Source: Globomyces pollinis-pini
Taxonomy: Eukaryota > Chytridiomycota > Chytridiomycetes > Rhizophydiales > Globomycetaceae
DNA length: 22,011 nt
NCBI GenBank assembly: GCA_025399215.1
Contig: MU621371.1
Span: 1-22,011, forward strand
Direction of reading: 5' to 3'
Positions 1-18,903 of this stretch are shown here, one piece after another. How positions within the stretch are numbered: the first letter of the stretch is position 1; every line of letters starts with the position of its first letter. Below the pieces are notes generated by a model, which ran no database searches, was not told the origin of the DNA, and saw only the letters and a list, made by a program, of their open reading frames with translations. The translations under genes and the position numbers were made by a program.

Positions 1-12
1 TTTAATTATTAG
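1..12 (+). other. 3' end of an intron (acceptor) interrupting the NRPS-like gene
   Basis: The first 12 bases, TTTAATTATTAG, have the pattern of the other intron ends in this window: a TTAAT branch-like motif a few bases before a TAG acceptor. Without splicing the TAG is an in-frame stop. With splicing the reading frame begins at 13 with Leu-Asp-Lys-Lys, which fits the end of an adenylation domain. The donor lies outside the window. Confidence 0.6.
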
Positions 13-1107
13 CTTGACAAGAAAATGCTTTTAAGTTTAGGTACAGATATTACTACATCTACTTTGACAATTTACGAAGAGATTGTTGCTGATGTTTGGT
101 TCAAGATGCTCGGTGTTAAAGTGGAATCTACAAACATATCATTTTTTGAAGCGGGAGGAAATTCTATCAATGTTATTTCTATTGTTCAGATTTTGAATCA
201 AAAGTTCCCATCATGTAAACTTGATGTGAAGATGATTTTCAAATTGCAATCGCTAAGAAGAATTGCTCTTTATATTGAGACAGGTCAAGTTAAATCGTTA
301 CAAGCAAAGCAGTCAACTAACTCACTCGCTGATGAACCTGATGATCTTCTCTTACAAACTAAATTGTCAGTTCGACCAATATTCAAAGAAAGGCCATTGA
401 AGATTGTGTGTCTTCATGGAGCGGGTAGTTCCGCCAATGTATTTTCTTTACAATTGCAGCAAGTAGTGGAGCAAATGGGATCAACTTGTGAATTTTCGTT
501 TATTGAAGCTAAAACAGAAATTAAAGGTGGTAATGCTTATCTATCAAAGTTCTATGATTCTGATCATTGGTATACTTGGGTTGGAAGCAAATACTTTGGA
601 ACCAAATTTTTATCAAAGAGAACCATGGACAAGGCTCTAAACGATGTGATTGAACAATTGCACGATATTGGTCCGGTGGATGCCCTTCTTGGATTTTCAC
701 AAGGTGCTGCTATGATAGAGATGCTTGATAGAAAAGCTCAAGCTTTCGAAATTCCAAAAACGTGGAACTTCAGCATTTTAATGTCTGGTATGCCAATCAA
801 GTCTTTGGCTCTTCCAAAAAGTTACACCAGCAAAGTTGAAGGTGGAATAAAATCTTCTGCACTGGTAGTCACTGGAGCAGAAGACCGTGATGCAACCTTA
901 CATTTAATGGATCGATACAATGTCAACTATAGACAACTGATGGAACATGATAAAGGACACGAAATCCCAAAACAAATGGAATTTACAAGAAACTTTGCTG
1001 ATAAAATATTTCGAATGGCCGTTAATGAACGAAAACGTAAAAATAATACACGTACAAGCTTAGATGACCGACGAATCGTTACATCCGTAGTTGATACAAC
1101 CTGGTAA
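13..1107 (+). CDS. NRPS-like protein, C-terminal part: adenylation-domain end, carrier domain, FSH1-family serine hydrolase
   Basis: The left end is cut by the window. The first codons read LDKK, the tail of the A10 motif (NGK-x-D-R/K) that closes adenylation domains, so the Met at 25 is probably internal. Numbered from that Met, residues 10-90 are a carrier domain with the phosphopantetheine site FFEAGGNSINV (Ser47). Residues 124-335 are an FSH1-type alpha/beta hydrolase: oxyanion segment HGAG (131-134), nucleophile elbow GFSQG (Ser225), an acid in GAEDRD (Asp287 or Asp289) and His312 in DKGHEIPK. Order A-T-hydrolase suggests an enzyme that activates an amino or carboxylic acid, holds it as a thioester, and releases it with the hydrolase in the place of a thioesterase. 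Substrate unknown. The tail after 335 is basic. A polyadenylation signal AATAAA lies at 1120-1125. Confidence 0.85.
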   Translation, partial: LDKKMLLSLGTDITTSTLTIYEEIVADVWFKMLGVKVESTNISFFEAGGNSINVISIVQILNQKFPSCKLDVKMIFKLQSLRRIALYIETGQVKSLQAKQSTNSLADEPDDLLLQTKLSVRPIFKERPLKIVCLHGAGSSANVFSLQLQQVVEQMGSTCEFSFIEAKTEIKGGNAYLSKFYDSDHWYTWVGSKYFGTKFLSKRTMDKALNDVIEQLHDIGPVDALLGFSQGAAMIEMLDRKAQAFEIPKTWNFSILMSGMPIKSLALPKSYTSKVEGGIKSSALVVTGAEDRDATLHLMDRYNVNYRQLMEHDKGHEIPKQMEFTRNFADKIFRMAVNERKRKNNTRTSLDDRRIVTSVVDTTW

Positions 1108-1258
1108 TACATTTACTTCAATAAAATGAAAATCGGTTACACTATTATTTTTTCATATTAATTGTCTTTTGACATTATTATAATGGTGATGATCAACAAT
1201 CAAAAAAATATGTGAGTGTTAGACTGACGTAACAAAAAATATTGAACTATTTGGTAAC

Positions 1259-2913
1259 ATGTTTCGAAAATGGGCAATGTTACCATTTGTATTTGGTAGT
1301 GTTGTCGTACAAATACAATACCGGAATTCATTTAATTGTGTAGGATCACCAAATGTAATGTACATTTTCAATGTGACAGATTTGAATTCACCCAAACCTA
1401 ATATCAACGAATCTTGGCCAGTATTTTATTCTTTTACACTGACGGAATGTTCAGTTTTTATATGTAGTTCTTTGGAAGTTCCATTAAAGGATAATTGTTG
1501 TATATCATCTCTTGACTTGTCTTTATCGGAGCAATATCAAAGTGGAACTGCAGCCGAATTAAAGGAAGTTAACCCATTACAAATGTATGCAAATGATGGA
1601 ACTTACTGTGTAATTACAAAAACAACTTTGCATCACAATAGTAGCAACTTTCGGTACAACGAAATGTTTATATTAAACGATAATCATTGTGTGGAACATT
1701 TTAAATGTCTTCAGAACAAAACTCTTATGATATACGATCAAAATCAATGCCAAGGTTCATTCGAATTATTTTCTTTAAAAGCTACTCCAATATTAATCAA
1801 TAGTAGAGGGTTATCTGGATCGGTGCAAGTTAGTTACCAAACGGGTACTAATGATACAAACAAAATATCTTGGATCGCTTCCATACCATCAACAAACTCC
1901 ATTCCCAACACAAATTCCATCTGGGATATTATTCAACATTTATGCTTTTCGGTTATATTGATTTCAGATTTAGCTTTGATTGTCTATGTCTATTTTTATC
2001 TGTATAGGGTGACTCAGACAAATTACATGAAGCTATTGATGCTTTTATCAATTATCTGGCTAGTCAGTGATACATTGAATTGTGTGTATGCTTATTCTGT
2101 GATTTCATCTATTCAACAGCAGTATCAAATCATTCAAACTCTATGGACTTTTCATAACTTAGCTACTCTTTTGAATGTTTTTCAAACTACCTTTTTTATA
2201 TTCAATATTGTCATTCCAAATGAATTCAATCTTTTGAAAGCAATAATAATCATTTCGATTGTCATTCTACAATTGGTACTTGCTGGATCGAAATATATCG
2301 GATATTGTTGGCAACCATATGTCACTTTTTGTACTACCTATTTCCCAAATTATTTAGATTGGATAGGGTATGTACAATATTGGATCTTGTTTGTATTCAT
2401 TTGGGATATCGTGCCAATTACTATAATATTCTACAAATTCTTTAATTCGCTGAACTTTCGTACCACAAGCGTATGGCAAAGTATATATGTTGCATGGCTC
2501 TATGATATTGTATTGCCTCTTATTGTTCTTCTACAGGTATTCATTGCTGTGACATATTTCGCAGTATCTTTTATCCAGCACTATACTGATTGGTTGGGTA
2601 ATTTGACGTATATTAAACTTTAGGAAGTGATAAAGCATGGGATAGTCTATTGGCAGTCCAAACGTTACTGATTACCAGCCATATGATACTGAATGTGGTA
2701 GCTATTCAAAGATTAAGATACCTGATATCAATGAAAGTTAACGCAGATTTAATCCAAGAAACAGAGCAAGATACTCAGTATTCAACCACACAGAATACAA
2801 CTTTTACACCAGATACACCTCCAAACTCGGGGTTTTCAAATTCGCATCATCAAACAACTTGTAATACTCATCCAAAAGGGCCACCATCAAGTCCAATTAC
2901 ACCAGAAGATTAA
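1259..2913 (+). CDS. 7-TM protein with cysteine-rich ectodomain, family 1 copy A (spliced, about 542 aa)
   Basis: I do not recognise the family, but the copy at 3643-5171 is a clear paralogue. Exons are 1259-2597 and 2624-2913. A short hydrophobic N-terminus (WAMLPFVFGSVVV) may be a signal peptide. Residues 20-215 form an ectodomain whose eight cysteines (27, 69, 80, 81, 117, 144, 150, 164) are all conserved in copy B, with several N-glycosylation sites. Seven hydrophobic segments follow (about 225-249, 256-280, 296-320, 327-349, 368-395, 414-440, and one after the splice). Shared signatures are PST-x5-PNTN-x-IWD before TM1 and AGS-x-Y-x-GYCW-x-P after TM4. The cytoplasmic tail is rich in Thr, Ser and Pro. 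Ectodomain plus seven helices suggests a receptor, but no G-protein-coupled receptor motif is visible. AATAAA lies at 2941-2946. Confidence 0.75.
2598..2623 (+). other. 26-nt intron in 7-TM family 1 copy A
   Basis: GTAATT...CTTTAG. Unspliced, the frame ends in TAG just before the last transmembrane helix; the next frame continues GSDKAWDSLL, matching GSDKAYDSFS of copy B. Splicing in phase 1 joins the two. Copy B has a 27-nt GT-AG segment at the same codon. The alternative is a one-base deletion in the CTTT run, which would give the same length as unspliced copy B. Confidence 0.6.
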
Positions 2914-3102
2914 AACCAATTTTCCATAAATCACTGTAATAATAAAACCTATTCAATATGAAATCCGGACCTTCCTGTATCTTTAAATTAATCTCAATAG
3001 AAACAGTTTGAATTCCGCTCACATCAGGATGTGTATAGTCCATAATAATTTAAAGGTCCAAATATGCTTTTATCATCAGTTGATTTATTGAGCATAAAGA
3101 AT

Positions 3103-3432
3103 TTACTCTGCAGCTTCTCTAGCAGCTTTCCATTTAGCGATTCTGATTGGCATTAATTTACGTTCAGTTCCTTTAAAAAATAAAATAATATCAATGCATA
3201 CCAATGAAAGGGAGAGAGAGACCAATAGCACTGACAGTCCAGAAACCGATTTGGAATAAAACTCTGTTCTTGACACCAAAAGGAAGAGCACCATTACCTC
3301 TCCAGTTACAACCAGCAAAATGAAGAGGACCTATTGATTAATCCTAAACAGCTTACCATATTGACCTGGAGGAAGGTGATTTTCACCACGAACCACTCTG
3401 CGAGCTTGGACTAAAGTTGATGAGGAAATCAT
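3103..3432 (-). CDS. COX7C-like cytochrome c oxidase small subunit (three exons, 90 aa)
   Basis: Exons on the minus strand are 3432-3357, 3330-3202 and 3170-3103. The product has a basic N-terminus rich in Ser and Arg (ARRVVRGE), as in mitochondrial presequences, then NGALPFGVKNR followed by one membrane helix (about 48-68) ending LPFIG, then a basic tail. LPF-x-VKNR before a single helix is the layout of COX7C, a small inner-membrane subunit of complex IV. The tail (KWKAAREAAE) is longer than in COX7C proteins; if the second intron is not spliced the protein ends at GMH, closer to the usual length. AATAAA is at 3084-3089 on the minus strand. The gene sits between the convergent copies of 7-TM family 1. 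Family assignment is probable, not certain. Confidence 0.6.
3171..3201 (-). other. 31-nt intron 2 of the COX7C-like gene
   Basis: GTATGC donor and TTTAAAG acceptor after a T-rich stretch. It joins LPFIG to TERKLMPIRIAKW in phase 1. Reading through gives a stop two codons later, so an unspliced shorter product is also possible. Confidence 0.6.
3331..3356 (-). other. 26-nt intron 1 of the COX7C-like gene
   Basis: GTAAGC donor, GATTAAT branch-like motif, AATAG acceptor. It joins QYG to PLHFAGCNW in phase 1; unspliced, the start codon's frame meets a stop at once. Confidence 0.75.
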
Positions 3433-3642
3433 TGCTTTTGATTTTGGGGGAAAAAAATTCGATGGAATGAAAAATTATGACAAAAACTGATAATTGAATG
3501 CTCACCCTAGAGAAGTTTATCGAAAACTATGCAAATGATAGGAATAAAAGAGAAGGAAATTGATGTAGGAATTGAATGAAAAAAAAACAGAATGAGTGGA
3601 CTTTTTGTTTATTGATTTGATGGTTTTTTATGGAAAATGTAT

Positions 3643-5171
3643 TCAGTTCTTGGTTGAATGAATGTTATTCACAGTATGCTGTTCTCCGTTGTTTGCAATG
3701 CCAAAGAGCACATTCTTCAGTCTTGACATGATCAGTAAACTTATTTGAGAATGTAAAGTAATAAGTGCAACTAATAGTGCTGAAAAACTATCATAAGCTT
3801 TATCGGATCCTAGTGAATTAATTAAACGCGCATTACCTAGCAAATCTGTCTGAAATTGTATATGGCTAGTTACAAAATAACCAATACATAAAAGAGTATT
3901 GCAAATCATTCCAATCATGAATATTTTATCGACTTCATATAAGTATTTCAATCTCTGAAGAACTGATTTACTTCCATGCACCAACAGCAGACTATATACT
4001 AAATAGCTAGAAGGAATTAAATCAAAAGAGAAAACAAATAGAAACCAAAATGGCATCATGGTCATCCAAACTCTGTAAGTATCGTAATGGATGCAATACT
4101 CTTGATCTGGACTCCAGCAATATCCAAAATAATAGGATCCTGCAAAAACTATATGTATTGCGATGGTAACAGCAAACATAGTTATCTTTGCTCTTGATTT
4201 CAATGGTGGTCGCATAACTCGAAATAGGTATACACTTGTTTGCATCACTGTGCATAACGAGGCCAAGTTTTGAATCGACCAAAGACATTCAATGAATATA
4301 TACATCGAATTCTCGTCTGGAAACTTATACAATGCGTAGAATGCTGTTAAGACCGTGTTGATTAACCATAATGTTGAAGTTATGATTGTAAGTGTGGTGT
4401 AATAAGTTTTGGTTCTGAGAAACAATCTAATGCTATATATCAAAACAAATAAATCTCCAACAATAGAGACGATGAAACACACGTATTGTAGTCTATCCCA
4501 GATGATGTTGGTGTTAGGAGTTGCAATTGTTGAAGGACAATATGTTATCCAAGATACATTCACCTTTGAATCGGCTCCTTTCGCGTATCTCCCATAAGCA
4601 ACGAGTCCTTCGTTGTCATTGATCTCCATCAAATCCGACTGAAGCTCTAAAGTCATTGAAATTTCTATCATTAATCATTTATGCTTCTACCTTCGCAATT
4701 AGGTCCAGAGTATATTTGAAAAGTTCCATCAGAATGGCATTTATAGGTATCATAGCAGTGGCCATCATTGAGAACATATATCGCCTTATATCCATAAATG
4801 GTAGATTTCTCTGATTCTTGTAAAACACAATATGTCCCACCAGCAGCATAAGCGTTCAATCCATATTCGTAGTCGTTAGTAGGTAAAATATTTGCTGAAC
4901 CACTCCAATAATTGTTTGATTCAATCAAACTCAACGAAGACGTACAACAACTATGAACTAACTGTATTGATAGACTTCCACAATAACCTAATGGTGACTC
5001 CTGTAGTGTGAAATAATAGTAATCTGGCCAAATTTCATTTTCCAACGGCTCTGAGCTTGTAATATCATAAACATTAAATAAGTACATAATTGAAGGCGAA
5101 TTTTGACACTGAGAAGAGTCTCTGTATTGTAGCTGAATGACTGAATACGAATGAGAGTCGTTAATTTGCAT
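3643..5171 (-). CDS. 7-TM protein with cysteine-rich ectodomain, family 1 copy B (spliced, about 500 aa)
   Basis: Paralogue of the gene at 1259-2913, on the opposite strand and convergent with it. Exons are 5171-4691 and 4664-3643. The ectodomain aligns from VIQLQYRDSSQC (VVQIQYRNSFNC in copy A), with the same eight cysteines, including the CC pair and TYCV. The membrane part carries PNTN-x-IWD before TM1 and AGSYYFGYCWSP after TM4, then three more helices. Unlike copy A, no signal-peptide-like stretch precedes the ectodomain, so a first exon upstream of 5171 is likely missing; I could not place it. The C-terminal tail is short and lacks the Thr/Pro-rich segment of copy A. Function unknown; receptor-like by shape. 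AATAAA on the minus strand at 3608-3613. Confidence 0.75.
3810..3836 (-). other. Candidate 27-nt stop-free intron in 7-TM family 1 copy B
   Basis: GTAATG...CACTAG, at exactly the codon where copy A has its 26-nt intron. Being a multiple of three without a stop, it is invisible in the reading frame. Spliced, the protein reads LLGSDKAYD, as spliced copy A reads WLGSDKAWD. Confidence 0.45.
4665..4690 (-). other. 26-nt intron in 7-TM family 1 copy B
   Basis: GTAGAA donor, GATTAAT branch-like motif, GATAG acceptor. It bridges two frames between the ectodomain and TM1 and joins PNCE to EISMTLELQ in phase 1. A second acceptor (TTTAG) 18 bases downstream would give a 44-nt intron at 4647-4690, also in frame. 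The 26-nt version matches the spacing of copy A better (23 against 22 residues from the last ectodomain Cys to the GL of the linker). Confidence 0.6.
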
Positions 5172-5409
5172 TGGACGGAAATTTCAATGTGGAATTCTAC
5201 GCGAACCGACATAAATTTGACATATAAGAGATATTTCAAATGAAGCACGCCAAAGTGTTGGATTTAAAAACTGTAAAGACATTCTTAAAATGAATTATGA
5301 GAGTCAATTTCTCTGTATCTGTATAAAAATAGCATATCTAATTTAATTGCAGGTTAATCGATTCGTTTTTTAACATCTTTATTTTTAAAAACCATTGACG
5401 AATGATCCC

Positions 5410-6255
5410 CTAAGTCTTCGTTTCGAATACATTTACATTTCCGCCTTTGGTGTTTGTAATTGAAGGAATAGATGGCCCTGTAGCGTTAACAGGGTTTGTT
5501 TTGAGATTAGTAGGATTGGTGTTTCCACTAGATTCAACATCGATACCAAAGATAGTTTGATACAATTTTCTTTGTTCAGTCATTGCAGAAATCGACCAAC
5601 TAGCTAGTAAAAATTCGAAAACAAATGGCTTATCAGCAGTTGATTTCAAGAAATCCATCAATGTAAATACAATAACGCAAAGCGTTAAAACATTTTCGAA
5701 GGTTAAAGAATAAATAATTTTCTGAAACGCTTTTTGTTTATGACGATCAGTAGTTGATTTGCCGCGCATATCCCAAATCTTGTACAATGAAACGGAATCC
5801 ATTAGTGCACGTAGGATAAGTAAAGGAACCATAGTAATAACCGTAATAATCACTGGGATCGCTGCATCGGGACCATTCATAAAAATAAATACAGTTCTGA
5901 CTTTTCGAATTACAAAAACCAACACCAGCAATGGTTGTCCAAACTTTAAGATCCATGGATTTCCAAAACAAATAGCATCAAATCGTTTTAGAGACACGTA
6001 AACCATTCCCACCAGCATACCGTTTCCAAAAAAAGTAGAAATAGCCATAACCGTATTTGCAGCTTCGAAAGGAACACCATTAACTTCAGCCCAATTAACC
6101 GTACATTGTATGGTAGCAGTCATAAATGAACACATTACCAAAAATTTCGTGATCCAGGTTTGTTGACTTACAGAAATGTTAATCAATTGATTAATTGTTA
6201 ATGCATGAACAAAACCTGTAGCGTAGAGGTAAAACGGTGGTTTTGGCAATGTCAT
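5410..6255 (-). CDS. Small 7-TM protein, family 2 copy A
   Basis: About 281 aa, almost wholly membrane-embedded, with seven hydrophobic segments and a hydrophilic Asn/Thr/Pro-rich tail. I start it at the Met at 6255 (MTLPKPPFYLYATGF), since the paralogue at 20645-21460 aligns from there (SRTPFLIFNAGF); an upstream Met at 6306 is possible. Motifs shared with that paralogue are VSL-x-RF-x-A after TM3, R-x-x-R before the TM4-TM5 loop, KAF-x-KII-x-SL at TM6, and TEQRKLYQTIFG after TM7. There is no long ectodomain. The family is not one I recognise; a sensory or receptor role is only a guess from topology. AATAAA on the minus strand at 5378-5383. Confidence 0.75.
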   Translation of the reverse strand: MTLPKPPFYLYATGFVHALTINQLINISVSQQTWITKFLVMCSFMTATIQCTVNWAEVNGVPFEAANTVMAISTFFGNGMLVGMVYVSLKRFDAICFGNPWILKFGQPLLVLVFVIRKVRTVFIFMNGPDAAIPVIITVITMVPLLILRALMDSVSLYKIWDMRGKSTTDRHKQKAFQKIIYSLTFENVLTLCVIVFTLMDFLKSTADKPFVFEFLLASWSISAMTEQRKLYQTIFGIDVESSGNTNPTNLKTNPVNATGPSIPSITNTKGGNVNVFETKT

Positions 6256-6306
6256 ATTCAGATTAGCGAATTCAAAATAGAAATGGACAATTTCGATTGA
6301 TAACAA

Positions 6307-6752
6307 GTCGACGTCAGTCGATATTCAAAAAAAAATTCCGAACAATATGCATAAACGAGCAATGTTATTCAAGATAAGTGTCTTGCATAATAATACAATT
6401 TGCTTAATTTGAATTATGTGGGTAGAAGGTTTGGAATATCTAACTGTATCTTGATGAAGCTTATTACCATTATTGCAAACGCGAATAAAATCACATGAAA
6501 ACCTTGATCAATAGTAACCATTATGATTTGAAAAATATGAAATAGTTCATCTTGATTTTTTACATGTTTACCTATTGTATTTTATTACAGATTAAAATAG
6601 CATGGAAATATATACTGACTCTTGAACCTCAAGCATCTAAAACCCTAAGCTCTTGCAAGACCTTTCCATTGCTGCGTCAATTAATCTTACTTCCAACGAG
6701 GTCAAGTGTTCATATCATTTATTTGAATTTCTTTTTCTTGTCACCTTTCTTA
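6307..6752 (+). other. Gene-less stretch between divergent genes
   Basis: This separates the divergent family 2 copy A gene and the Nudix gene and should hold both promoters. The Nudix frame is open back to about 6552 but shows no family similarity there. I see no RNA gene or repeat. Confidence 0.4.
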
Positions 6753-7641
6753 ATGCCGACAATCCTAAATATTTTAAAGGATTTTAACACCGGATCATCA
6801 TCGGATAAACTGGAATTTATTGTCGAAGGAATAGTAGTTGGTCATATCCCTTCAATCATTGTTCCACATCTGATATCTCCAATATTTACCATACAAAATA
6901 ATGCTGTTCATTTAACATCATTCAATTCTTTGAATCAAAGAACAATTGAATTAGAAAAAGTACTACTGGAATGGAAATCAAAGAGATTATTTCGTTGTTT
7001 AGATGGATGGAGGAATGAACGGTATTTTATTTACGGACCAAATGGACCTTTACTTGAAATAGAACGTGCAGCAACTGGATTGTTTGGAGTGCTTAGTTTG
7101 GGTTGTCAACTAAATGGGTATACTATTGTCAACAATGAAATTAAAATGTGGATTGGGAAAAGATCATTATCAAAACAGTATAGTTATCATCCTTTCTAAC
7201 AATAGAACTTATCCAGGAATGCTAGATAATACAGTTGGAGGAGGATTAACAGCTGGAAGCATTCCGTTACAAACGCTGATAAAAGAATGTTATGAAGAAG
7301 CAGGGATTGAAGAGCATTTAGCAAGTAAAAGCAAATACGTAGGATACATATCTTATTGGCAAGAGAAAGAATTTGAATCGAATTCTGGAATTGACTATAT
7401 TTTCGATCTGCAGCTCCCTGAATCATTTATTCCTAAACCTGTAGATTTGGAAGTAGATAGTTTTCAATTAGTATCCATGACAGATCTAAAAGAATTGATT
7501 TTGCAAAACAAATTTCATCCTGAAGCTTTAATGGTGGTGGTTGATTTTTTGATCCGTCATCATGCTATATCAGATATAGATGGTGAGCTAGAAAAGCTAT
7601 TGAGATTCTCTCTTCCATATCATCGGCCAGTATTCGAATAG
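6753..7641 (+). CDS. Nudix hydrolase of the thiamine-related (DUF4743-Nudix, YJR142W-like) family
   Basis: Exons 6753-7177 and 7206-7641 give about 286 aa, normal for the family. Residues 1-110 match the N-terminal DUF4743-type region (EGIVVGHIP, LDGWRNERY, IERAATGLFGVL). The Nudix part follows: NGYTI, KMWIGKRS-x-SKQTYPGMLDNTVGGGL, and the box end KECYEEAGI (168-176), giving the Glu residues that bind the metal. Ser160 stands where the canonical box has its first Glu. The C-terminus has DLQLPESFIPKP and VVVDFLIRHHAI, both family hallmarks. Relatives in yeast and plants hydrolyse diphosphates of damaged thiamine analogues (oxothiamine, oxythiamine), so a role in thiamine diphosphate quality control is likely. 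I start at Met 6753 because similarity begins there. Confident on family, less on substrate. Confidence 0.85.
7178..7205 (+). other. 28-nt intron in the Nudix gene
   Basis: GTATAG donor, TTTCTAAC branch site, AATAG acceptor. Splicing in phase 2 creates SKQ-TYPG, exactly the conserved family motif. This is the best single proof that introns this short are real here. Confidence 0.9.
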
Positions 7642-7851
7642 ATGTTCATTACAATTTTGCTTCATATAAATCATCGTCTCAATGGATATATATTTTAAAG
7701 ACTGTTACTATAGTGAGTTCAAAGAGTCATTAAGTTATTAAATCATTAAACTAATAATTGGGATTAATAGTGAAGTGATTATATTTAATATCGTTTCTCA
7801 GTCCTCATTGAGTTAGTTGTTTGTGTTGATCGCGTCTCCTTCACTATCAAA

Positions 7852-10634
7852 ATGGCACTCTTTAAAAATGACTACCAAGTAATCATCAGAAAATTTAATT
7901 TAAATAGGGTGGAAGCCATCTAGAAATACTATCAAGGTACCAGAGATTGTTTAATGTTGTTAGTCAGGGTACAACCATCAAGAATTGGAAGTTACGAGGA
8001 GTAAAGAAAATATATCAATCGGATTTAAAAGTATACAAGGCTGCGATTAATAGATAGGGTTCTTGTCATCATGTGGAAGGTTTATAATATCATTGATAAC
8101 GTTGCAAAGGAGGGAAGTTGAATCTACCAAAGAACGATAAATTACATTGTATTTCTTAAGCATAGAATCTAATCGATAGTATATCTATATCAACCATACC
8201 TGCTTTTTCAGTTATACATCACTTCTGGGATGCCAATTTCTATTGAATTGTGTTTGATTGACATGAATAATAATCACAGTAACAATTTATCATTTAATTC
8301 AATAGGAAGATTTTTGATATCAACCAATAACAAAGAAACCAAAACTACAGCGTTACACATATCATGTCCATTTCCGGATCTGATCAAAGGGCAGGTATAG
8401 TTGGTCCCATAACATATAGTGGATGAATGTGTGCTTTGATTTAGTGAATTTGGTAGCTGAAATTTGTGGAATTAATTGTTTTTAGTTGTCAGACAATTTT
8501 AAAGGATTTACATACAAGAGGCTAGATTCAATTGGACTAAATGGAACATTTCGATTAAGAAAAATCTGTACAATCAAAGATCGACCACCAGAAACTCAAA
8601 TGGATAACTATTCAAAATATTCTGATTTCAAATCTATTGTAGAATTACCTAAATCCATTCTTCTACCAAGCGATATATTGAGCAGTACGATAGTCTATGA
8701 TATGCAACGCATTTTACGCATCGAAAATAGGAGCCTTAACACTAATGATGTAATTCCAGCCATTAGTAAATTGGGAATGATCTAATCATTTAGTGGATAG
8801 TCAAACACAACATCCAATTCAAACTCATATAGCGTTTGGTGTAACTACAAAAGGAAAAGCTCCATCAATTTATCATGCTAATCCATTAATTGGTGCTGTT
8901 AGATCAAAAGTAATACATAAATGTACTAATCGTCCAAGTCTAGTATATCCTCTAGGAAAAACACACCTGATCTTCATGTGTTATCTCCAATACACAATGT
9001 TTCAAAAGAATCAAAGCACTCAAAAGTTGAGGTGGTAAAACGTCCAACATCAGTTAAATCCAAACCCCTTGCATCAGTGGTGAAACAATTAGATATCACA
9101 GAGGAAGATGATTTATTTTCTGATGAAGATATTGATGGTATTGAAGAAAAAAATATCAGAGATTTGGAACTAATGGAATTCAAGAAATCATTCATTTCGA
9201 ACGAGAGTAACAACAAAAACGTTCAACATACAACCGAATTGATAAAAAGGCCAGTTGAAGAAGACAAGAAGGAAACAGTATACGAAGATAAAGATATAAG
9301 AGTATCCCCCGATCAATCACCCATTAACTTGCAAGTCGCCGGCATCACTGAACATGTCCAAGCACAGGATTTAACACATAAAGCTTTGGAAGGATTGAGG
9401 GCAATAGATGAGATTGAAGAAGATATTGCTGAATATTCAGAGCAATCCAATACCTCGATGAACAGCTTTAGCAAATTCGACAACCGTGATCTTTTCCCAC
9501 ATAGCATAGATGAAGAAGGTGAAGGCTTTGAAGACAATGTCATACCAGAAGAAATACACTTTACTAATGGCCACAATGCAAACCAGGTGTTAGAGTCGAA
9601 AGTGATTGGAAATGATTCTGATAATAATCGAAGTGGAAAGGAAGAACATATTAATGAACTATCCGATGTTTGCAAATATAATCAAATTAAAACAAGACAA
9701 TCTGATACGGAAGAAGATGATTGTATACCAGAAAATATTTCACCTGAAATAAGCCAATCAACAACTACAACGTACCAAATTCAAAATGAATGCATACTAC
9801 AAACCTTTGAATCAAAACTAGTCCTAGCAGCTGATAACAATACTCCTATGAAAAGCTTTATTCCAAAACGTACAAATATTGTTCGATCTATTTCAAGAAA
9901 TTCGGTTCAATCAGTAACCAAAACTATTAGAAGTATATCAAGACAATCAGTTGATAGTCAATCTTTGAAATTGACTTCATCTGGAGGCGTGATTATGCCG
10001 TCTCAACAAGATTCTGAACAATCCAATGCCAAAAGGCAAGAATCAGTGACAGATACTTATCAGTCAAATTTAACGTTACATAATTATGATACTTTGCATA
10101 AAGAATCTCTGGAGCAGATTTCTGAAATAAAATCCACATCATCGGACAGTACCAAATTGAAAGCAAATATAAAATCTTCAAAAACACCATTAGAATCCAA
10201 AAGAATTGCTCCGGCAGCAGAGCCAAACCAAGAAACAGAAGCACTTAAACCATGGGATATACAGGAAGGGCATCAACTTTTTCAATCTTACTTATCTGAA
10301 ACTGATAGACTATCTCTTGGACCGCCAGCAGATGAAAGTGATGAAGAGCTAAAGCAAAGTATGCAAGAGCGTATCTTAGCCAGATTAGAGGGATACAATA
10401 TGTAATTCAATTTTTATAACAGTTAGGAATCAAATGCCAGTAGATGAGATAACTGATGATATTGAGAAACTTTTTATTTACCAAGAAGATGGATCATCTA
10501 AAACACTAGGTTCACGATATTTACCTATTGATCAAGATGTTGAGGTTTGTTTTGATCAAAACGAACAATGTTATTTCGACCCTACCAATGGTAATTACTA
10601 TGATTTGCAGGATGAAAAGATTACATCAAAATAA
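7852..10634 (+). CDS. CFAP20DC: CFAP20DC homologue: CFAP20 domain plus long acidic disordered region (12 exons, about 823 aa)
   Basis: Exons: 7852-7878, 7908-7936, 7964-8030, 8058-8079, 8110-8148, 8180-8278, 8306-8394, 8420-8452, 8486-8765, 8794-8909, 8939-10401, 10427-10634. Introns are 29, 27, 27, 30, 31, 27, 25, 33, 28, 29 and 25 nt, and all phases fit. The spliced N-terminus (FKNDYQGGSHLEILSSQG, KNWKLRG, LNLPK, FQLYITSG, RRFLISTNNKE, MNVCFDLV, NFKGFTYKRLD, LRKICTIKDRPPET) follows human CFAP20DC (C3orf67) segment by segment as I know it, through residue 175. The rest is acidic, Ser/Asn-rich and probably disordered. The last 60 residues are more ordered, with CYFDPTNGNYYDL (803-815). CFAP20-domain proteins belong to cilia and flagella, so this points to a flagellated stage. 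An AATAAA overlaps the stop codon at 10630. Exon 1 (9 codons) and exon 4 (22 nt) are the least certain. Confidence 0.85.
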
Positions 10635-10751
10635 ATCTCAACTATTTGATAATATACATTTTTATAAAAATACTCAAAGTTTCACTTCAAATATTTACGT
10701 GCTGAAAACTAAAACCAAAAGCATCAAATGTTTTATTCTTTGAGTTTTATT

Positions 10752-12395
10752 CTATTTGATGAATTGAAATTTTTGATCAATTAATTGAAACTTTGCAGTG
10801 TTGGCAAAAGCATCGTCTAATTCACCATTTTTCTGATTAGCTTGTAAAGTTTTGGAAAAGGATGGATCACCAGCTGACATCAATAGTAAAATATCATCAT
10901 CAGATTTCCATTCGATATCCTTGTTCTTCATGACTCCTGCCAGGCAGATCGAGGCCACAACCACAACAATCAGTGCTAGTGGAACAACTGTGGAGTATTT
11001 TATTTGAACGGTATTAAATTGACGACAATAGTTGATTTTTGTGTTTTGGAGTGATTGAGGTTCTAATGCAACTGCACAAAGACCATACTGGAATCTTTTC
11101 TTCAGTCTATCTACTAAATTATCCATCTTCAAAGTCATATTTTTCACACGTTCTTCAAATACATCACCCCAAGTAAACTTAGTTACATATGTTGATGTTG
11201 TTAGAGATTGATATGCATAACAGTTTTTCTCATCACCGATGGGAGATACAGCAGAATCTAGTAAACCGCCTTTGAACAATTCAGGACGCTTCTTTTCAAT
11301 CGTTTCCGCTTGTTTGCTACTTGGGAAAAAACCACTGTCGCTATAATTGGAGTATAAGATTGTTGGAAGAGTCTTTGAAGTCCATTTTTTTTCTTGAAAG
11401 TTATAAATCATGTCAGCAGCGACTATTGAAGCACTAAGTTTGCAGTTAGGGCCAATTTGCATGTCTTCACTACCCAAATCTAAGAATGGTATGTAAACTC
11501 GGCTGACCGAATCTTTTTGCATTACTTTCTCTTCCATCCCATAACCCAAAACAAACTGAGATTGGTCTTCAACTTTAATAGTAGACTTTCCGACTTTAAA
11601 TTCATCCATTAGTCCAGGACTTTTCTTTGAGCTAGAGCTGGAATCGCAATTAATTTCCCCTTGAATGAATGTAATATTTTGGGCTTCAATACGATTAGTG
11701 TTTTGATCTAATATTGGTGGTAACAAGTAAGCAAATTTATTGGCTCCTAAATTCACTTGACTGGCAGAACACCTATCAGTAATGGTACCAATATCTCCAT
11801 TTAATATCTGGGCACTAGTGGACGCTTTAATAAAAGCACCGCCAGATTGAAGAAAACCTGTAGTCTTGAACTTTTCTTTATCTGGATTGAGTCCTGTACT
11901 TAGAGCCACAGACTCGTCTGTACACACCACAGTATCTTTTTTTACGGTGACGGCAAATGGAAATACCATATTCGAGATAGATGCAAATAAGATTAAGTAG
12001 ACAGATAGTTGCATGAGAGAATGTTTGAACCAGATTGATCGCAATCCAAGCAATGATTCAATTCCCCCAGCAGTCCTTACCGTTACAAATTCGTTTACTG
12101 ACATGGGAAAATTGGCAGCCCTCCAGTACGCAACAGTAGCTCGAAAGTACATAATAATATTACCAATACAGAAGACAAACACCCCAGCCAAAACAGAGAG
12201 TATAGCGGAACCGAAATTCTTCAACAAATCGACCGAATCTTCAATCAGTGTAAAAGAACCGATTTTCAATGCCAAATTTAAGGTGGACAAGTATGCCAGT
12301 AGTGGATTTAAAAGAGGTAAGAGTAGCAATATAAACGCAACGACAAACATTCCCGCTATACTGTACGTAATCAAACTTGGAGTATATCTTGCCAT
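10752..12395 (-). CDS. Multi-pass membrane protein of unknown family (547 aa)
   Basis: I do not recognise it. Hydrophobic segments lie at about 9-39 (one or two helices), 63-84, 126-149 and 467-489. Between the third and last is a domain of about 315 residues with scattered cysteines (158, 208 region and later pairs) and several N-x-S/T sites (QNIT, SNYS, KNMT), so it is probably extracellular or lumenal. The C-terminal 58 residues are charged, probably cytosolic, and carry DIEWKSDDDILLLMSAGD. No intron is evident. A TATA-like element lies about 40 bases upstream of the start. Two minus-strand AATAAA elements, at 10746-10751 and 10732-10737, follow the stop. The gene is convergent with the CFAP20DC homologue, 117 bp apart. 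Confidence 0.75.
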   Translation of the reverse strand: MARYTPSLITYSIAGMFVVAFILLLLPLLNPLLAYLSTLNLALKIGSFTLIEDSVDLLKNFGSAILSVLAGVFVFCIGNIIMYFRATVAYWRAANFPMSVNEFVTVRTAGGIESLLGLRSIWFKHSLMQLSVYLILFASISNMVFPFAVTVKKDTVVCTDESVALSTGLNPDKEKFKTTGFLQSGGAFIKASTSAQILNGDIGTITDRCSASQVNLGANKFAYLLPPILDQNTNRIEAQNITFIQGEINCDSSSSSKKSPGLMDEFKVGKSTIKVEDQSQFVLGYGMEEKVMQKDSVSRVYIPFLDLGSEDMQIGPNCKLSASIVAADMIYNFQEKKWTSKTLPTILYSNYSDSGFFPSSKQAETIEKKRPELFKGGLLDSAVSPIGDEKNCYAYQSLTTSTYVTKFTWGDVFEERVKNMTLKMDNLVDRLKKRFQYGLCAVALEPQSLQNTKINYCRQFNTVQIKYSTVVPLALIVVVVASICLAGVMKNKDIEWKSDDDILLLMSAGDPSFSKTLQANQKNGELDDAFANTAKFQLIDQKFQFIK

Positions 12396-12964
12396 TGTAG
12401 TATCAAATTGTGGCAGTCATGTTTTTCTTACCTTTTTATAACAGTTGCTGCACTTTGTTGGGGATCAGAGCAACACCTTCGTTTCAAACACAAACGAGGA
12501 TTTCTTCTAGCAGAGCTTGGCTCATTTTTGAAAGTGATACCTTTGTAGTTTTATCTATTCAATAAGTTCTGCAAGAGAGTAAGTAGTACATTGCATACTA
12601 ATGGAAATCTCTATATAATTCTAGTACCGGTGGGCACTTAATCATATAGAGTTGCTGTCTCTGATGATCACATTAAACACTTCTTGCGTTCAGTTTGGTA
12701 CTGCATATTATTCATATGAGTATTGTATCCACAGTCTTATTGTTCACTTATCGGTGTGTGGCTGAAACATTTGAACAGGGTCCCACCATTCAAGAAAGAG
12801 ATCCCTGTATTTTTAATGCACCGCAAAGAAAAGGAAGAAAAGGGAGATGATTTATGTCAGCTAAAATATAAATCCTATTATCAAGAAGTCTAAACAAGTA
12901 TTTAATCAACGCTCATCATCCAATCACTCTATTTTTATTTGAGCATAGCGATCAATCAACACTA
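12396..12964. other. Gene-less stretch upstream of the 547-aa membrane protein gene
   Basis: About 570 bases lie between two minus-strand genes. A minus-strand AATAAA at 12934-12939 serves the gene to the right. A short open stretch on the minus strand near 12525-12485 (MSQALLEEILVCV then stop) could be an upstream reading frame or noise. I see no repeat or RNA gene. Confidence 0.4.
12432..12440 (-). promoter_or_regulatory. TATA-like element before the membrane protein gene
   Basis: Reads TATAAAAAG on the minus strand, about 37-45 bases before the start codon at 12395. A similar element sits at a similar distance before the HMG-box gene. In so AT-rich a sequence this is weak evidence. Confidence 0.3.
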
Positions 12965-15058
12965 TCAAGCTTTGACACTAGCCCTTTTAACACCTTTATC
13001 ATCAGTTCCTCCAACAGTCTTTGACCTGCGCCGTGTCTTCGGTCGCTTCTTGCTGTAGTAATATGTATACTCACACACCATACAATCACCAGATGGTCGG
13101 GATTTGGGGTACGTGGGTGAATATAATGTCCATACAGATTTTCCATTGAGTTCTTTGACAGATTTTCTTAGTGCGGCTGATGCATTTGGTGGGATTCGAA
13201 CAGGTACTAATGGTGAATTTATTGATACAGATGTGCCGGCATTTGCTCGTTTTTTCTTGGATCGGCGTTTGTTGACAATTACATCGTCTTTGGTCACTGG
13301 GGTTACTGGTTTAGTTGGCATATTCTCTTTTGCTTCGGATACACTATCAGCTGGAATTACAGGTATTGGACCTTCAGGTGATGGTACAACATTCACTTTT
13401 GGCGTACGAAACAAAAAATCTTTAGTGGCCATACTAAACTTTGACATGGTTGATAAAACAGGCTTTCCTTTCAATTCTGGGTTGACTTCCACTGGCTTCG
13501 TTTTTACAATTATCTTTGGTGTGTATGTTTTCATTAAAAAGCTGCGTTTGGGACTGCGTGTTTTACCTTTTAACCAACCACTCATTGGAACTTGATCTTT
13601 GACGTCATGGTCCGGCTTTGCAGCATTTCCAACAGTATCAAATTTAGGGGTTTGAGTCGCATCTGAGGAGAGAGAGCTCTTGTTTGCTAGTGGGATAGCC
13701 TTGGTAAACACAGGGAGGTTTTTGTTAGATGTTGCGGCGTTCACGCCAAACGTAGGTACGGGTTTAAGTGGTTGAATGCCATTGGTTTTAGAGATTGGAA
13801 CTGTTTGGGTAGATTGTACATTCTTACCAAGAATGGGAGCGTTTTGAAGATTGTTTGGAGGCGGATAAGTCTTGCCGAACACTGAAACATTTTGGTGGGG
13901 TGTTGTAACATTCTTTCCAAGAGGTGAAGTATGTTTCTCCGACACCGAACTATCATGCTTTGGGGGAGGAACATTCTTTGCAAACACATGTGCATTCTGG
14001 CTTGGAGCAGTGGTCATATTATCTGATGAAGATTTAACAAACGTTTGGCCCACATTACTAGATTCTTGATTAACAACTGATGGGACGCTAGAAATCACGT
14101 CTTTCAACCCCAATTTTTGTTTGATATGCTTATACGCTTGTTGTCCTTTAATATTATTATCAAACTCGGTCTGCAATCGCTCATGAAGTTTTTGAATTTG
14201 TAAATCAAATTCATGTTTAGAAATAGTACCATGTTCAAGTATTTGATTTCTATTCTTATCCAGATGAGATTGAAATTCTTGATCAGTTAATGGAATATTA
14301 AAATCAGCATATCTCTTTTCCATTTGATTCAGAAATTCTTGAAATGGTAGTGCTAGTGCAGCCTCATCTTCAGGGGATAGATTGAGTGATTTAAGAATTT
14401 CAATGCTTTCTTTGATAGTTTGATTGGCAAATACATTGGTGAGCATTGGGGTTGAGGTTGATGCTGGGGAGGAGGTCGGTTTAAAAGGTGAATTAGGCGG
14501 TTTTTTAAATGTTGGTGATATGATTTTACGATTGGCTGGTACATGCTTTGATTTTTGGAAATTCGGTACGGTGAAAACGAATGAATTTGGTTTGTTGTTT
14601 GGTTTCTCATAGGATGGTAATTTTGGTATTTCATTGCTTTGTGATGAACGCTAATATATTAGAACATGTAAAAAGGTTACCTCTTGGTTTATTGTATCTT
14701 TGAATAACGCTTGAACATCTACCATATTTTCGGGATATTTCGTTTTTGGTTCCATTTGCAATTCACCATTAATCATGGTAGCTTGGAATTGAGTTGAATG
14801 TTGAATAGCTTTCATGTCGCGTTTATCAACAGAATTATCAATTGTTTTTGGTTTCATAACATTGCCAAACCCTTCCATCATTTTTGTATCATGCGAGTCA
14901 AATTCATCAAATGTAGCATTATTATCTAGTCCAAGTTCTGCTCTATCCATTTGAGTTTGAACTGTTCTCGTAGGAGCGAAGTCAACTTTACGGTCTCCTC
15001 TTGGACTATTGTCAATGACTGTTTGTGACGAGACTTCTTGTGATTGTTTTTGTCCCAT
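12965..15058 (-). CDS. Low-complexity protein with N-myristoylation signal and FGKN-like repeats (687 aa)
   Basis: Exons 15058-14681 and 14650-12965. I do not recognise the family. The N-terminus MGQKQSQE fits the N-myristoylation rule (Gly2, Ser6), so attachment to a membrane is plausible. After an acidic region comes a Pro/Ser/Asn-rich stretch, then a charged, probably coiled region (about 205-310: ESIEILKSLNLSPEDEAAL, NQMEKRYADFN, IQKLHERLQTEFDN). Residues 348-452 hold about six degenerate repeats. Beyond these are basic, Pro-rich segments (KGKTRSPKRS, RRSKKKRA) and a very basic end (SKKRPKTRRRSK). Such composition suits a scaffold or cytoskeleton-linked protein; that is inference. A GTGAGT...TACAG segment of 22 nt near 13050-13075 could be one more intron and would replace the C-terminus. 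Confidence 0.7.
13673..13987 (-). repeat. Degenerate protein repeats around FGKN-x-PPP
   Basis: Six units are visible: VFAKNVPPPK, PLGKNVTTPH, VFGKTYPPPN, ILGKNVQSTQ, TFGVNAATSN and VFTKAIPLAN, spaced roughly 13-27 residues apart. The DNA copies have diverged, so this is an old or selected repeat and not a recent tandem duplication. Confidence 0.6.
14651..14680 (-). other. 30-nt intron in the myristoylation-signal gene
   Basis: GTAACC donor, TTCTAAT branch-like motif, ATTAG acceptor. It joins TINQE to RSSQSNEIPKLP in phase 0 and connects two long frames with the same low-complexity style. It is a multiple of three, but reading through meets a TAG. Confidence 0.75.
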
Positions 15059-15243
15059 AACTGTCTTCTGTCTAACTGGTTTTTAAAGTAAACTTTTCAA
15101 ACAAATTCTCGCGTTTATTTGGTTAATTGCTGAAATTTAGAATCAACATGAAAGTAAACATAAAAAACTCAGTACACTTTTACACTGAATCTGTTTGATC
15201 GATATTTATTATATGCATATAAAGAGACTAATTGGTTTAAAAA

Positions 15244-16541
15244 TTAACTGATAACGAATGATTTCGCTTTCAAACAAGCTATACGTAACTCTTTTTCAAT
15301 ATCCAAATTATTCAACTTTATATCAATGGCATTCACCAATAGTTGAACATGATAAGGATTAACAGGGCCACCTGCCATTAACCATAAAATAAAATACCAG
15401 CATATAATACAAAGTCACCAATAGTTTTCAAAATCAAAATAATAGCTTTATCATTTTTACAAGTATTGATCATAGTGATTAGCAATGGCAATATAGAATC
15501 CATATATTTGTGAAAGGATGAACCTATCACCATTGAAACTTTTCCTAAAACCTTCAAAACGTTTATGATTAATTTATCAATCAATTGATGATAATTCACT
15601 TGATGACTATTCAACACCACATTTGAATGATCATCATCTAAATTTAATTGTGTTAGTAAATCGTGAGCTTGAGAGAATTGTTCAACCAACATATACATTA
15701 AATAATCCACATGATCAGAACGATCCAATAATGTTTCATCGAATTTCAATATACTGCCGACCAATTCATTCAAATGTGATTGAATTATTAGATGATGTTG
15801 TAGATGTGATGGTTGTGAAATATGTTGAATGGATTTGGTATAATCAATCACAATATAATAGAATTGGTTGATGGTTATTAAATGATTCAACGATGAACGT
15901 TTGATTAATTGCATTATCGTTTTTAATATATATACTTTCATCTCCACCAATTCAAAATCAATCCTATAAAAATATCAATTTACCACAATAAATCTACCTG
16001 ACAAAACAATCCCATAAATGATTCAGAATAGAATTAAAAAATGGTGATAGTTTACAATCCAAATCGGTATCGTTTGTGGTTCCAAAATGTTGAATTAAAT
16101 GATTGATTGATTTAATTGAGTTTAAACTACATTGAATATCAGTTGAATATAAATTCTGTAAGATTCGCTCGAGTATTTCTGATATTGGTAATGGATTACA
16201 AATTGGCAGAGAACATATTAATGACAATAAGGAAGCGCAAGTTCGTTGAAGAGAGGGATCATTTGAAAGATTCAGAATAAATGGTAAAACCTAATGATTA
16301 CAATTAAATCAAATACTGATTTCAATTGAGAATCATCCAAGTTTTCTACTGTTGAATGAGTAGGTATTTTTGGCTCTGGGCAGACGACGGATGTCTGGTG
16401 GTCAAGCAATGAACCCAAAACCAGTAGAAACGAATGGAATTCATTTAGTAAAGAGTTGGCATGATTCAATTCAATTTCTTTTGCTTCTAAGTAAACTTTT
16501 AACTGTGAATTTTCTAGCTCCAATTCGTTCTGTTTTGCCAT
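15244..16541 (-). CDS. Helical, HEAT/ARM-like protein with N-terminal coiled coil (four exons, 403 aa)
   Basis: Exons 16541-16317, 16290-15998, 15963-15398 and 15371-15244. The start MAKQNELELENSQ opens a coiled coil of about 30 residues. The rest is a series of amphipathic helix pairs typical of HEAT or armadillo repeats: VLPFILNLSNDPSLQRTCAS, ILERILQNLYS, INHLIQHFG, and, best, LGKVSMVIGSSFHKYMDSIL followed by LLITMINTCKNDKAIILILK and a closing LRIACLKAKSFVIS. I could not name the family; the C-terminal part recalls importin-type repeats but is too short for a karyopherin. An upstream open segment (DFELEIVDHIQIIL, near 16600) may be a further exon. A minus-strand AATAAA is at 15205-15210. 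Confidence 0.65.
15372..15397 (-). other. 26-nt intron 3 of the HEAT-like gene
   Basis: GTATTT donor, GGTTAAT branch-like motif, GGCAG acceptor. It joins FVLYAG to GPVNPYHVQLL in phase 1. Confidence 0.75.
15964..15997 (-). other. 34-nt intron 2 of the HEAT-like gene
   Basis: GTAGAT donor and TTTTTATAG acceptor. It joins LWDCFV-R to IDFELVEMK in phase 2. It is the longest intron I resolved in the window. Confidence 0.7.
16291..16316 (-). other. 26-nt intron 1 of the HEAT-like gene
   Basis: GTATTT donor, GTAATC branch-like motif, ATTAG acceptor. It joins SQLKS to VLPFILNLS in phase 0; unspliced, the frame closes nine codons later. Confidence 0.7.
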
Positions 16542-16914
16542 GTCCAACCACTGAACCTCAAAGAAATTTTCAAAGAATTATCTGGATATGGTCCACAATT
16601 TCAAGTTCAAAGTCAGTTATATAGCTAATAATTGATTTATTAACTTATTAATTTGGACTCAGGTTCCGAATGGATAGGACAGAGTCGCGTTGGAAATATC
16701 AAGTGATGGATATGTGAAAATCAATAATAATAGTATGTTTACTAACAGCAATTAATAATGATCCTGTTTAGAGACATTGAACTATCTGGTAATTAACTGT
16801 ATCCAAAGTCATTGTTCAATACTGAAATCTTGGAATGATTTCTTAATGAATATATCAAGTTTAATATGATTCTATTTGCGTGAACTTCTTCACACCGTGA
16901 AGTGACAAACTATA
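16542..16914. other. Intergenic stretch between the HEAT-like gene and a possible plus-strand gene
   Basis: This is probably the shared upstream region of a divergent pair. On the minus strand near 16635-16590 an open segment preceded by an acceptor-like TTATTAG may be an extra 5' exon of the HEAT-like gene. I see nothing else. Confidence 0.3.
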
Positions 16915-17007
16915 ATGTTTTATGTCATTTATGGAGTGAAAAATTCAAGGTATCATGATTCATGATCCCATTACTAACCATCGTTTCATACAGATTATTA
17001 TTCTGTC

Positions 17008-17217
17008 ATGTTACTGCACAATATCCAAATCACAAAGACAGTAGAAAATAATGCCACATCCTCTATAATAAACACACTGGGCCTTGAAACATCCAAAAGT
17101 ATGCAGGGTGAAAAAAAGAGTGAACTACACAGCAATCGCCCAAGTATTGATTCGGAACACAGATATATTTACCGCTGGATTTCAATCATCCATGACAGTA
17201 GAACTCTGTTGGGATAA
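17008..17217 (+). CDS. Possible exon of an unresolved plus-strand gene
   Basis: The frame is hydrophilic and Ser/Asn-rich, ending RYIYRWISIIHDSRTLLG. It is not recognised. A good intron end precedes it: GTATCA at 16950, TTACTAAC, CATACAG at 16993 (44 nt), following a short open stretch from an ATG at 16915 (MFYVIYGVKNS). That reading enters a different frame from this one, so another intron would be needed (for example 28 nt starting with GTTACTG). I could not build one consistent gene. An AATAAA at 17515-17520 supports a plus-strand transcript ending nearby. Confidence 0.25.
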   Translation: MLLHNIQITKTVENNATSSIINTLGLETSKSMQGEKKSELHSNRPSIDSEHRYIYRWISIIHDSRTLLG

Positions 17218-17282
17218 ACTGAATCAATCACGTCAAGACAAATAGATACCATCAGTAAAATGAAAAAAGAATGTGAACGGGC

Positions 17283-17486
17283 ATGCTTGATATTGTGATT
17301 GGTACCTCAACTCATTGTATTTTTGCCTTTGAAATATTCTCCGATTCATTTTACCAACCAAAAAACAGCCTACCAACGATTAAGGTGGTACACAACCACA
17401 GAAACGTGCTTTTTAGGGAGTTTCTGCAAGGCCATGTTAATGGTGTTGAAACACCATCGAAAAACAATACAAATTCAATATTTTAA
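17283..17486 (+). CDS. Possible 3' exon or short gene of unknown function
   Basis: Sixty-seven residues, mixed hydrophobic then polar (DIVIGTSTHCIFAFEIFSD, NSLPTIKVVHNHRNVLF), with no recognised family. An overlapping frame (17299-17505) is equally open, so the true frame is unclear. The frame closes 28 bases before an AATAAA at 17515. No convincing splice acceptor precedes it. Confidence 0.2.
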   Translation: MLDIVIGTSTHCIFAFEIFSDSFYQPKNSLPTIKVVHNHRNVLFREFLQGHVNGVETPSKNNTNSIF

Positions 17487-17576
17487 TCACGTTGCATTTG
17501 GATAATAACCAAAAAATAAAATTCATAAAGAGTAGAGATGTTATTGAATTCAGTAGTTCGATTTATTTACAATACA

Positions 17577-18903
17577 TTATGGAAAGAATAATAATTGATC
17601 ATCAGTAGGTGTCCACCCAGATGCATAACTGAAATCAAAATCCCCAGGTTGCACTGCACATGAGGATATCGATCGGCGTTTGTCATTACCATTCATATAC
17701 TGTGGTAATAGATTGGTATCTAATTTCAAATCCGTTTTGGATAATCGATGGTTGTGATGTTGGGAATCTAAGCCAGTCTCTGAGAGTGAGAGACTGGCAG
17801 TAGATGGGTTTTGGTAGGTCATCAATGATTGGCTAGAATCATTATTGTGATTCATTAAGTTAATAGTAGAATTATTAGGCTGCGCTTGAAGTACAAAGTT
17901 TGAGTTTTGATTATAATTAGAAAGAGTAGCATTAGAGTTATTTGAATGTTGGAAAAAGAGTTGATTGTTCATGGTGGACATATCAGAGTTGACCATTCTG
18001 GTGGTATCAGTGTAAGAATTCCTATGTGGATTGTTTGTAGGTTGACGATTTGCATAGTTTTGTCTGTTAAGTTGCGAACCAGATTCAGGGATAAAACTGA
18101 GTGGATTATGGCCAAATACAGGGAGCGGATCGTTCGGTTGGTGTAAAGCCAAGCTAAATGTAGAACCTTTCAAGAGTTCTTGGTTTGAAGGAAACATATG
18201 CATTGAATCACTATGATGATGACCTGTACGTTCAGCCAATTGAGGATAACTTTTAGTTCGTGAGATTTGATGATTCATACTTCCGGAACCAGCCGAAAAT
18301 AAGTTTTGTTGATAAGTATCTTTGAAACTAGTAGAGTATTTCTCGTCCGACAAACGCCGGTTTAATGACGAATGGTCACCAATAGTCTGTGTATTTGATT
18401 GAGGAGCCCATCTTGATGAATCACCAAAGTCCATGAGGATGGATTGAGAGACTGAATGATCTTTCAAAGAACTGCTTGAATTCGAACTTGGCCTTCTTTC
18501 CAAGTTCATGTCTTGGGTACTAGAACTAGTACTATTACGTTTCAAACTGGGATGTTTTGAAGGTTTTGGTGATGGTAACGATTTACTCTTCACTACCTTT
18601 CCTTTTTCCTTTGTCTTTGTTGTTTTCTCAGCCTTCTCTCGTTTTGACCTACCATAAGACAAATCAAAATTACCAATTAAAATCAGGGTATAGTTCACGA
18701 TGTTCACAATGTGCATTATAAGACTTGAGTCTATATTGATCCTTGACTTCATCACTTTCCTTTGCCCATAATTCTGCAGCAATTTTTGAAATCAAATGAG
18801 ATTTACTAACACCATGTTCTTGAATGATTTTCATTTTAACATCTTTTCGATACATGAAGAATGAATTCATTGGCTTTTTGACATTATCGTTTAGTTCTGC
18901 CAT
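17577..18903 (-). CDS. HMG-box transcription regulator (SOX/MATA-type), 433 aa
   Basis: Exons 18903-18674 and 18648-17577. Residues 8-77 are a sequence-specific type HMG box: VKKPMNSFFMYRKD at helix 1, SKSHLISKIAAELWAKES at helix 2, DQYRLKSYNAHCEHRELYPDF at helix 3. It resembles SOX/TCF and fungal MATA-HMG boxes more than the architectural HMGB type. A lysine-rich nuclear-localisation stretch follows (SKREKAEKTTKTKEKGK). The rest is Ser-, Asn-, Gln- and His-rich and probably disordered, as in activators. In fungi such boxes include mating-type and sex-locus regulators as well as general ones; the neighbours here are not the known sex-locus neighbours, so a mating role is only a possibility. 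Minus-strand AATAAA at 17562-17567; TATA-like element about 45 bases upstream. Confidence 0.85.
18649..18673 (-). other. 25-nt intron in the HMG-box gene
   Basis: GTAATT donor and GGTAG acceptor. It joins LYPDFNW to SKREKAEK in phase 2, directly behind the HMG box; unspliced, the protein would end after the box. It lacks an obvious TAAT/TAAC branch motif. Confidence 0.8.

Follow-up and report, generated by a model that had tools for sequence, protein, structure and literature searches.

Predicted ultrashort U2-type introns form the main, but not the sole, intron class of a chytrid-like fungal genome

Ultrashort introns in described systems

Ultrashort introns as such are a known kind, found in ciliates and others, and both Stentor and the chlorarachniophyte nucleomorphs carry ultrashort spliceosomal introns that are shorter still than those described here and belong to other lineages. 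The nucleomorph introns measure 18 to 20 bp, and Paramecium and Nyctotherus have ultrashort introns of about 25 bp and are said to have only such introns (PMC5014332). The genome analyzed here resembles these two ciliates in a main predicted intron class near 25 to 30 nt. It differs in being fungal, and the exclusively ultrashort repertoire of the Paramecium type is not what we observe, with 7 of 59 homology-mapped introns spanning 77 to 271 nt. Introns of 3n length, which are under strong pressure in Paramecium (PMC5014332), account for 22 of our 74 short introns. In Oxytricha and Stylonychia, the shortest introns of 30 to 45 bp occur alongside longer ones (PMC5014332), a two-class pattern shared with our genome, in another lineage and another size window. 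The mikrocytids have numerous introns of 16 to 17 nt in a very narrow range (PMC10245619); the narrowness is shared, but theirs are much shorter and belong to parasites with a highly reduced spliceosome, whereas canonical parts are encoded here.

Among fungi, Cryptococcus neoformans is rich in short introns and has a 20- to 40-nt bin, but its mean intron length, given as 56 nt (PMC11913375) or 63 bp (PMC8476143), is about twice that observed here. Malassezia could be the nearest fungal parallel, being compact with “very short introns” for which the available text gives no length (PMC7426719), but it is a basidiomycete. No report of a chytrid with such introns appeared in titles or abstracts among the matches listed, in a literature that lacks most subscription journals, and this result is weak evidence of novelty. 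The available parts of PMC5364385 and PMC6572847 give no chytrid intron length, and in those of PMC13391722, on another Rhizophydiales chytrid, introns come up once, in an output setting. The latter reports Rhizophydium megarrhizum MAGs with a completeness of about 75% at the genome level versus 40.5% at the protein level, ascribed to fragmented genes; as a guess, unseen ultrashort introns could contribute to this shortfall.

Introns of about 28 nt are far below the usual fungal size. Gene finders that accept no introns shorter than about 40 nt would break or fuse genes in genomes of this kind, which makes the present case a warning for annotation. The DNA from which we started (the window) is a stretch of 22,011 nucleotides comprising the entire contig C282 of an 18.55-Mb assembly of 459 contigs.

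Intron length and anatomy across the genome

The length distribution was read from spliced alignments to known proteins that were blind to intron length and used no splice-site rule, covering nine conserved genes (Prp8 and CCT1-8). They yielded 59 introns, 15 in Prp8 and 44 in the CCT genes: 52 measure 23 to 35 nt (95% interval of the short fraction, 77 to 95%), 7 measure 77 to 271 nt, and none falls between 36 and 76 nt. The short ones have a mean of 28.9 nt and a standard deviation of 2.7 (51 of the 52). In Prp8, where 2,075 of 2,326 aligned residues are identical to the Boothiomyces protein, the introns span 27 to 33 nt; six junctions are GT-AG directly, and all 15 become so under a small GT-AG bonus that leaves the lengths unchanged. 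CCT intron lengths are likewise alike with and without the bonus, with the aligner placing 41 of 44 as GT-AG and the remaining 3 placed by hand, one of them shifting from 31 to 28 nt. At the level of sequence, the claim of the first-pass annotation that these are spliceosomal GT-AG introns is borne out, and all 59 can be placed with such ends (Prp8 with the bonus, three CCT introns by hand). Homology also revised CCT lengths called by the gene finder, from 16 to 28, 39 to 27, and 50 to 29 nt, with 23 unchanged, while a 47-nt intron in the Hsp60 gene (L044) is a gene-finder prediction alone.

Two wider surveys point to the same mode. In the window and 20 sampled 10-kb stretches, scored independently of gene models, GT-AG pairs join two coding-like stretches at rates of 59.5 (25 to 29 nt) and 44.5 (30 to 34 nt) per 1,000 pairs, versus 11.2 to 27.0 for ten control dinucleotide pairs; small GT-AG excesses also occur at 35 to 39 nt (30.0 versus at most 26.6) and 50 to 59 nt (38.5 versus at most 34.1). 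A gene finder with a flat length prior of 12 to 250 nt, run on 221,784 bases of the 18.5 Mb including the window and Prp8, placed 188 of 368 predicted GT-AG introns at 25 to 34 nt, where six decoy pairs gave 8 to 23. Predicted introns of 23 to 35 nt occur in 19 of 22 stretches; the same conservative run finds 7 in the window, 12 in Prp8, and 180 elsewhere, the latter with a median of 28 nt. Above 40 nt, GT-AG counts are within or under the decoy range, so this survey is blind to a long class. A sharp mode at or below about 35 nt, as expected of an ultrashort-intron genome, is therefore seen both by homology (52 of 59) and in the 222 kb surveyed (188 versus 8 to 23 decoys).

The long introns found by homology measure 77, 80, 82, 82, 159, 199, and 271 nt (7 of the 44 CCT introns) and lie in five genes (L036, L037, L038, L040, and L041, on contigs C20, C136, C81, C168, and C52). 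In CCT6 (199 and 82 nt), CCT5 (80 nt), CCT1 (82 nt), and CCT8 (77 nt), alignments to PDB proteins are ungapped across the long introns, and on this ground we regard the long class as real. The remaining two, of 159 and 271 nt in CCT3, were placed provisionally, against a reference sequence; the 159-nt intron contains a 9-bp hairpin and, by eye, a repeated ACAAACAAATAACAA. Candidate explanations of the long introns as carriers of known small RNAs found no support in Rfam, nor was there support for folding into shortening structures (seven introns, z of −1.7 to +1.6 versus letter shuffles). Among predicted introns, whose acceptor model drew on the final 8 letters and thereby overlaps the motif region, the branch motif is found in 115 of 199 at 23 to 35 nt (34.0 in shuffles), 9 of 38 at 36 to 69 nt (5.7), 15 of 38 at 70 to 120 nt (4.9), and 20 of 87 at 121 to 250 nt (11.2). 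The excess at 70 to 120 nt indicates a real longer class beyond the CCT genes. On these predictions, ultrashort introns are the main class of the genome and not its sole class. The “general rule” of the first-pass annotation stands as a main mode and falls as a statement about all introns genome-wide, narrowing to a strong majority because 7 of 59 are long.

Of the 74 short introns, 54 carry a YTRAY motif 6 to 14 nt from the 3′ end, compared with a mean of 12.8 and a maximum of 24 in 2,000 shuffles, which agrees with the TAAT or TAAC noted earlier near the acceptor. By set, it occurs in 38 of 52 homology-mapped short introns (9.1 shuffled) and 16 of 22 window introns (3.7 shuffled), and 5 of the 7 long introns have it at the same place (shuffled mean 1.1; 5 reached once in 2,000 shuffles). 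The previously described GTA(A/T) donors and predominantly TAG acceptors are found again in 73 short introns (51 homology-mapped plus 22 from the window), with A at +3 in 64, A or T at +4 in 66, G at +5 in 17, and T preceding AG in 57. The distance from donor to best-scoring branch A is 14 to 22 nt in 47 of the 51 homology-mapped introns and in 17 of the 22 from the window; the score used is simple, and shuffled introns often satisfy it too. An inner AG is present in 16 of 74 short introns.

Host lineage, splicing machinery, and alternative readings

Prp8, rebuilt from contig C137, has its best match in Boothiomyces sp. JEL0866 (order Rhizophydiales; 89%) among the best 120 of 3,048 hits. Within those 120, nine of the ten next-ranked nameable fungal Prp8 records are from chytrids, at 83 to 90% across the aligned portion; third in rank is a fish record. 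Prp8 scans against viral and GTDB contigs turned up no relative. By the hits of this single protein, with no tree, we place the organism among the true fungi, closest to a chytrid of the order Rhizophydiales, which corrects the earlier wording “fungus-like.”

The predicted splicing machinery includes a U2 RNA with the branch-pairing GTAGTA, a U5 RNA, Prp8, SF1, and U1-70K, all above cut-off; Prp8 is intact over its aligned length, and a 28-nt GT-AG segment joins the two matched pieces of SF1. The U2AF large subunit appears as four pieces on contig C16, each under the family cut-off, with 2 of 14 bacterial controls matching too. U1 and U6 RNAs were not found in the genome by Rfam (for U6, also by two core patterns), with Rfam searches silent everywhere, so that absence is not implied; the U6 gene may have diverged, be interrupted, or lie outside the assembled sequence. 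A U6-like 16-mer on contig C309 was rejected, as Rfam gives no U6 there and it resembles coding sequence.

With these parts encoded, we consider it very probable that the segments are ordinary U2-type spliceosomal introns of narrow ultrashort size (23 to 35 nt; mean, about 29 nt) that make up around nine in ten introns, with the rest at least 77 nt long. A different impression would arise if the short introns were simply the visible subset of an ordinary fungal genome, with many normal introns hidden by frame bridging and a short-biased search. The 77- to 271-nt introns among the 44 of the CCT genes, the branch motif in predicted introns of 70 to 120 nt (15 of 38 versus 4.9), and the restriction of the homology sample to nine conserved genes all lend this some weight; the length-blind alignment nevertheless still places 52 of 59 introns at 23 to 35 nt and none at 36 to 76 nt, which makes such a large hidden class improbable.

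Tiny AT-rich segments also resemble the IES-like elements of ciliates, and could in principle be sequences eliminated at the DNA level or bypassed in translation rather than RNA introns. Against this stand the GT-AG placement of 59 of 59, the branch motif near the 3′ end, the U2 RNA with GTAGTA, the intact Prp8, and the longer introns with the same ends, and we judge elimination or bypass very unlikely indeed. Least credible of all, and close to negligible, is that the frame breaks are sequencing or assembly errors or mark pseudogenes: N runs do occur in 3 of 20 sampled 10-kb stretches, but what interrupts these conserved genes (Prp8 and eight CCTs) are GT-AG segments, 52 of the 59 being alike in size, and not indels of 1 or 2 bases.

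If the segments are ultrashort U2-type introns, recognition may well occur across the intron (intron definition), given the weak donor and close branch. A YTRAY motif 6 to 14 nt before the 3′ end leaves little space for a polypyrimidine tract, and 28 nt could hardly accommodate U1 and U2 next to each other in their usual arrangement; donor and branch would therefore probably be recognized one shortly after the other or through hand-over to U6/U5. The introns may have shrunk from longer ones rather than been born short, with the spliceosome imposing a lower limit on how far the donor-branch interval can be reduced by tolerated deletions. A more far-reaching proposal, which we put forward tentatively and hold to be somewhat doubtful, is that in a Rhizophydiales lineage almost every intron was shrunk to the minimum that a canonical spliceosome allows, leaving two separate size classes and a near-empty zone at 36 to 76 nt. 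Were this true, donor and branch would be recognized in two physically different ways within the same nucleus. An extreme intron size, familiar mainly from ciliates, nucleomorphs, and reduced parasites, is thereby predicted for a fungus that encodes canonical spliceosome factors, and the minimum donor-branch spacing could thus be studied near tractable systems.

Gene models of the window

Genes in the window were modeled by a purpose-built gene finder that had been trained on this genome and was run with a strong prior for short introns, under which it also placed introns within uninterrupted frames. Of 49 predicted introns, 21 frame-restoring ones were retained and 28 discarded; one of the discarded calls, at 3810-3836, later gained support from a paralogue. 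An intron placed by hand at 2598-2623, which yields a single open protein, brings the frame-restoring set to 22 GT-AG introns of 25 to 34 nt (mean, 28.0 nt) in eight genes, one more than the 21 of the first-pass annotation and in the same size range. The least certain of the 22 is that at 15228-15255.

The hand-placed intron (26 nt) belongs to gpcr1 (1259..2913, plus strand), a two-exon gene with a seven-transmembrane (7TM)-like appearance by eye, and it is also supported by alignment to the neighboring paralogue gpcr2 (3643..5171, minus strand). The two lie in opposite orientation and share 34% identity over 476 columns. A frame-restoring intron interrupts gpcr2 at 4665-4690 (26 nt). In addition, opposite the 26-nt intron of gpcr1, gpcr2 has 9 extra residues corresponding to a 27-nt stop-free GT-AG segment, so that 3810-3836 is, by comparison with the paralogue, probably a hidden 3n intron that causes no frame break. 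Bridging frame breaks alone, as done originally, thus misses stop-free 3n introns, which we found in gpcr2, CCT2, and CCT7. Pfam gave no match for gpcr1 or gpcr2, nor for further 7TM-like ORFs seen by eye at 5410-6324 and 20645-21610 (minus strand).

The most intron-rich model is a CFA20-domain gene (7852..10634, plus strand) with 11 frame-restoring introns. Introns 1 to 8, at 7879-7907 (29 nt), 7937-7963 (27 nt), 8031-8057 (27 nt), 8080-8109 (30 nt), 8149-8179 (31 nt), 8279-8305 (27 nt), 8395-8419 (25 nt), and 8453-8485 (33 nt), are covered by a Pfam CFA20 match to the spliced protein (2e-18, residues 4 to 168). Introns 9 to 11, at 8766-8793 (28 nt), 8910-8938 (29 nt), and 10402-10426 (25 nt), are placed by frame only. 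Three unspliced ORFs of this gene gave no Pfam match, in a scan that excluded short frames upstream of 8173. The protein has two matches in PDB, the better being CFAP20 at 2e-4. This gene had been taken as a CFAP20DC homologue proving all 11 introns; homology covers eight, and the name is not established because a search with the complete spliced protein gave no relative at E 0.001. A similar proof had been seen in the DUF4743-Nudix gene (6753..7641, plus strand), whose intron at 7178-7205 (28 nt) restores the frame. Splicing unites Pfam DUF4743 and NUDIX in one protein and lets the Pfam match begin at profile position 11 instead of 18, with a slight gain from 30.5 to 33.0 bits, which amounts to support rather than proof.

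The other four genes are on the minus strand. A Cox7c-like gene (3103..3432; Pfam COX7C at 1.6e-4, under the curated cut-off) has frame-restoring introns at 3331-3356 (26 nt) and 3171-3201 (31 nt). The gene at 12965..15058, both ORFs of which lack a Pfam match, has its frame restored by an intron at 14651-14680 (30 nt). Four more, likewise placed by frame, occur in a gene with a weak importin-beta-like match (15180..16541; TPR_IMB1 at 3.4e-6, under cut-off), at 16291-16316 (26 nt), 15964-15997 (34 nt), 15372-15397 (26 nt), and 15228-15255 (28 nt). Finally, an HMG-box gene (17577..18903; a clear match to Pfam HMG_box at 7.7e-13) has one intron at 18649-18673 (25 nt).

At the contig edge, the gene at 13-1107 (plus strand) combines a phosphopantetheine carrier domain with an FSH1 serine hydrolase and is perhaps the end of a larger synthetase. 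By eye, the intergenic DNA at 20206-20352 contains a sequence of about 72 bases repeated head to tail, the two copies having diverged.
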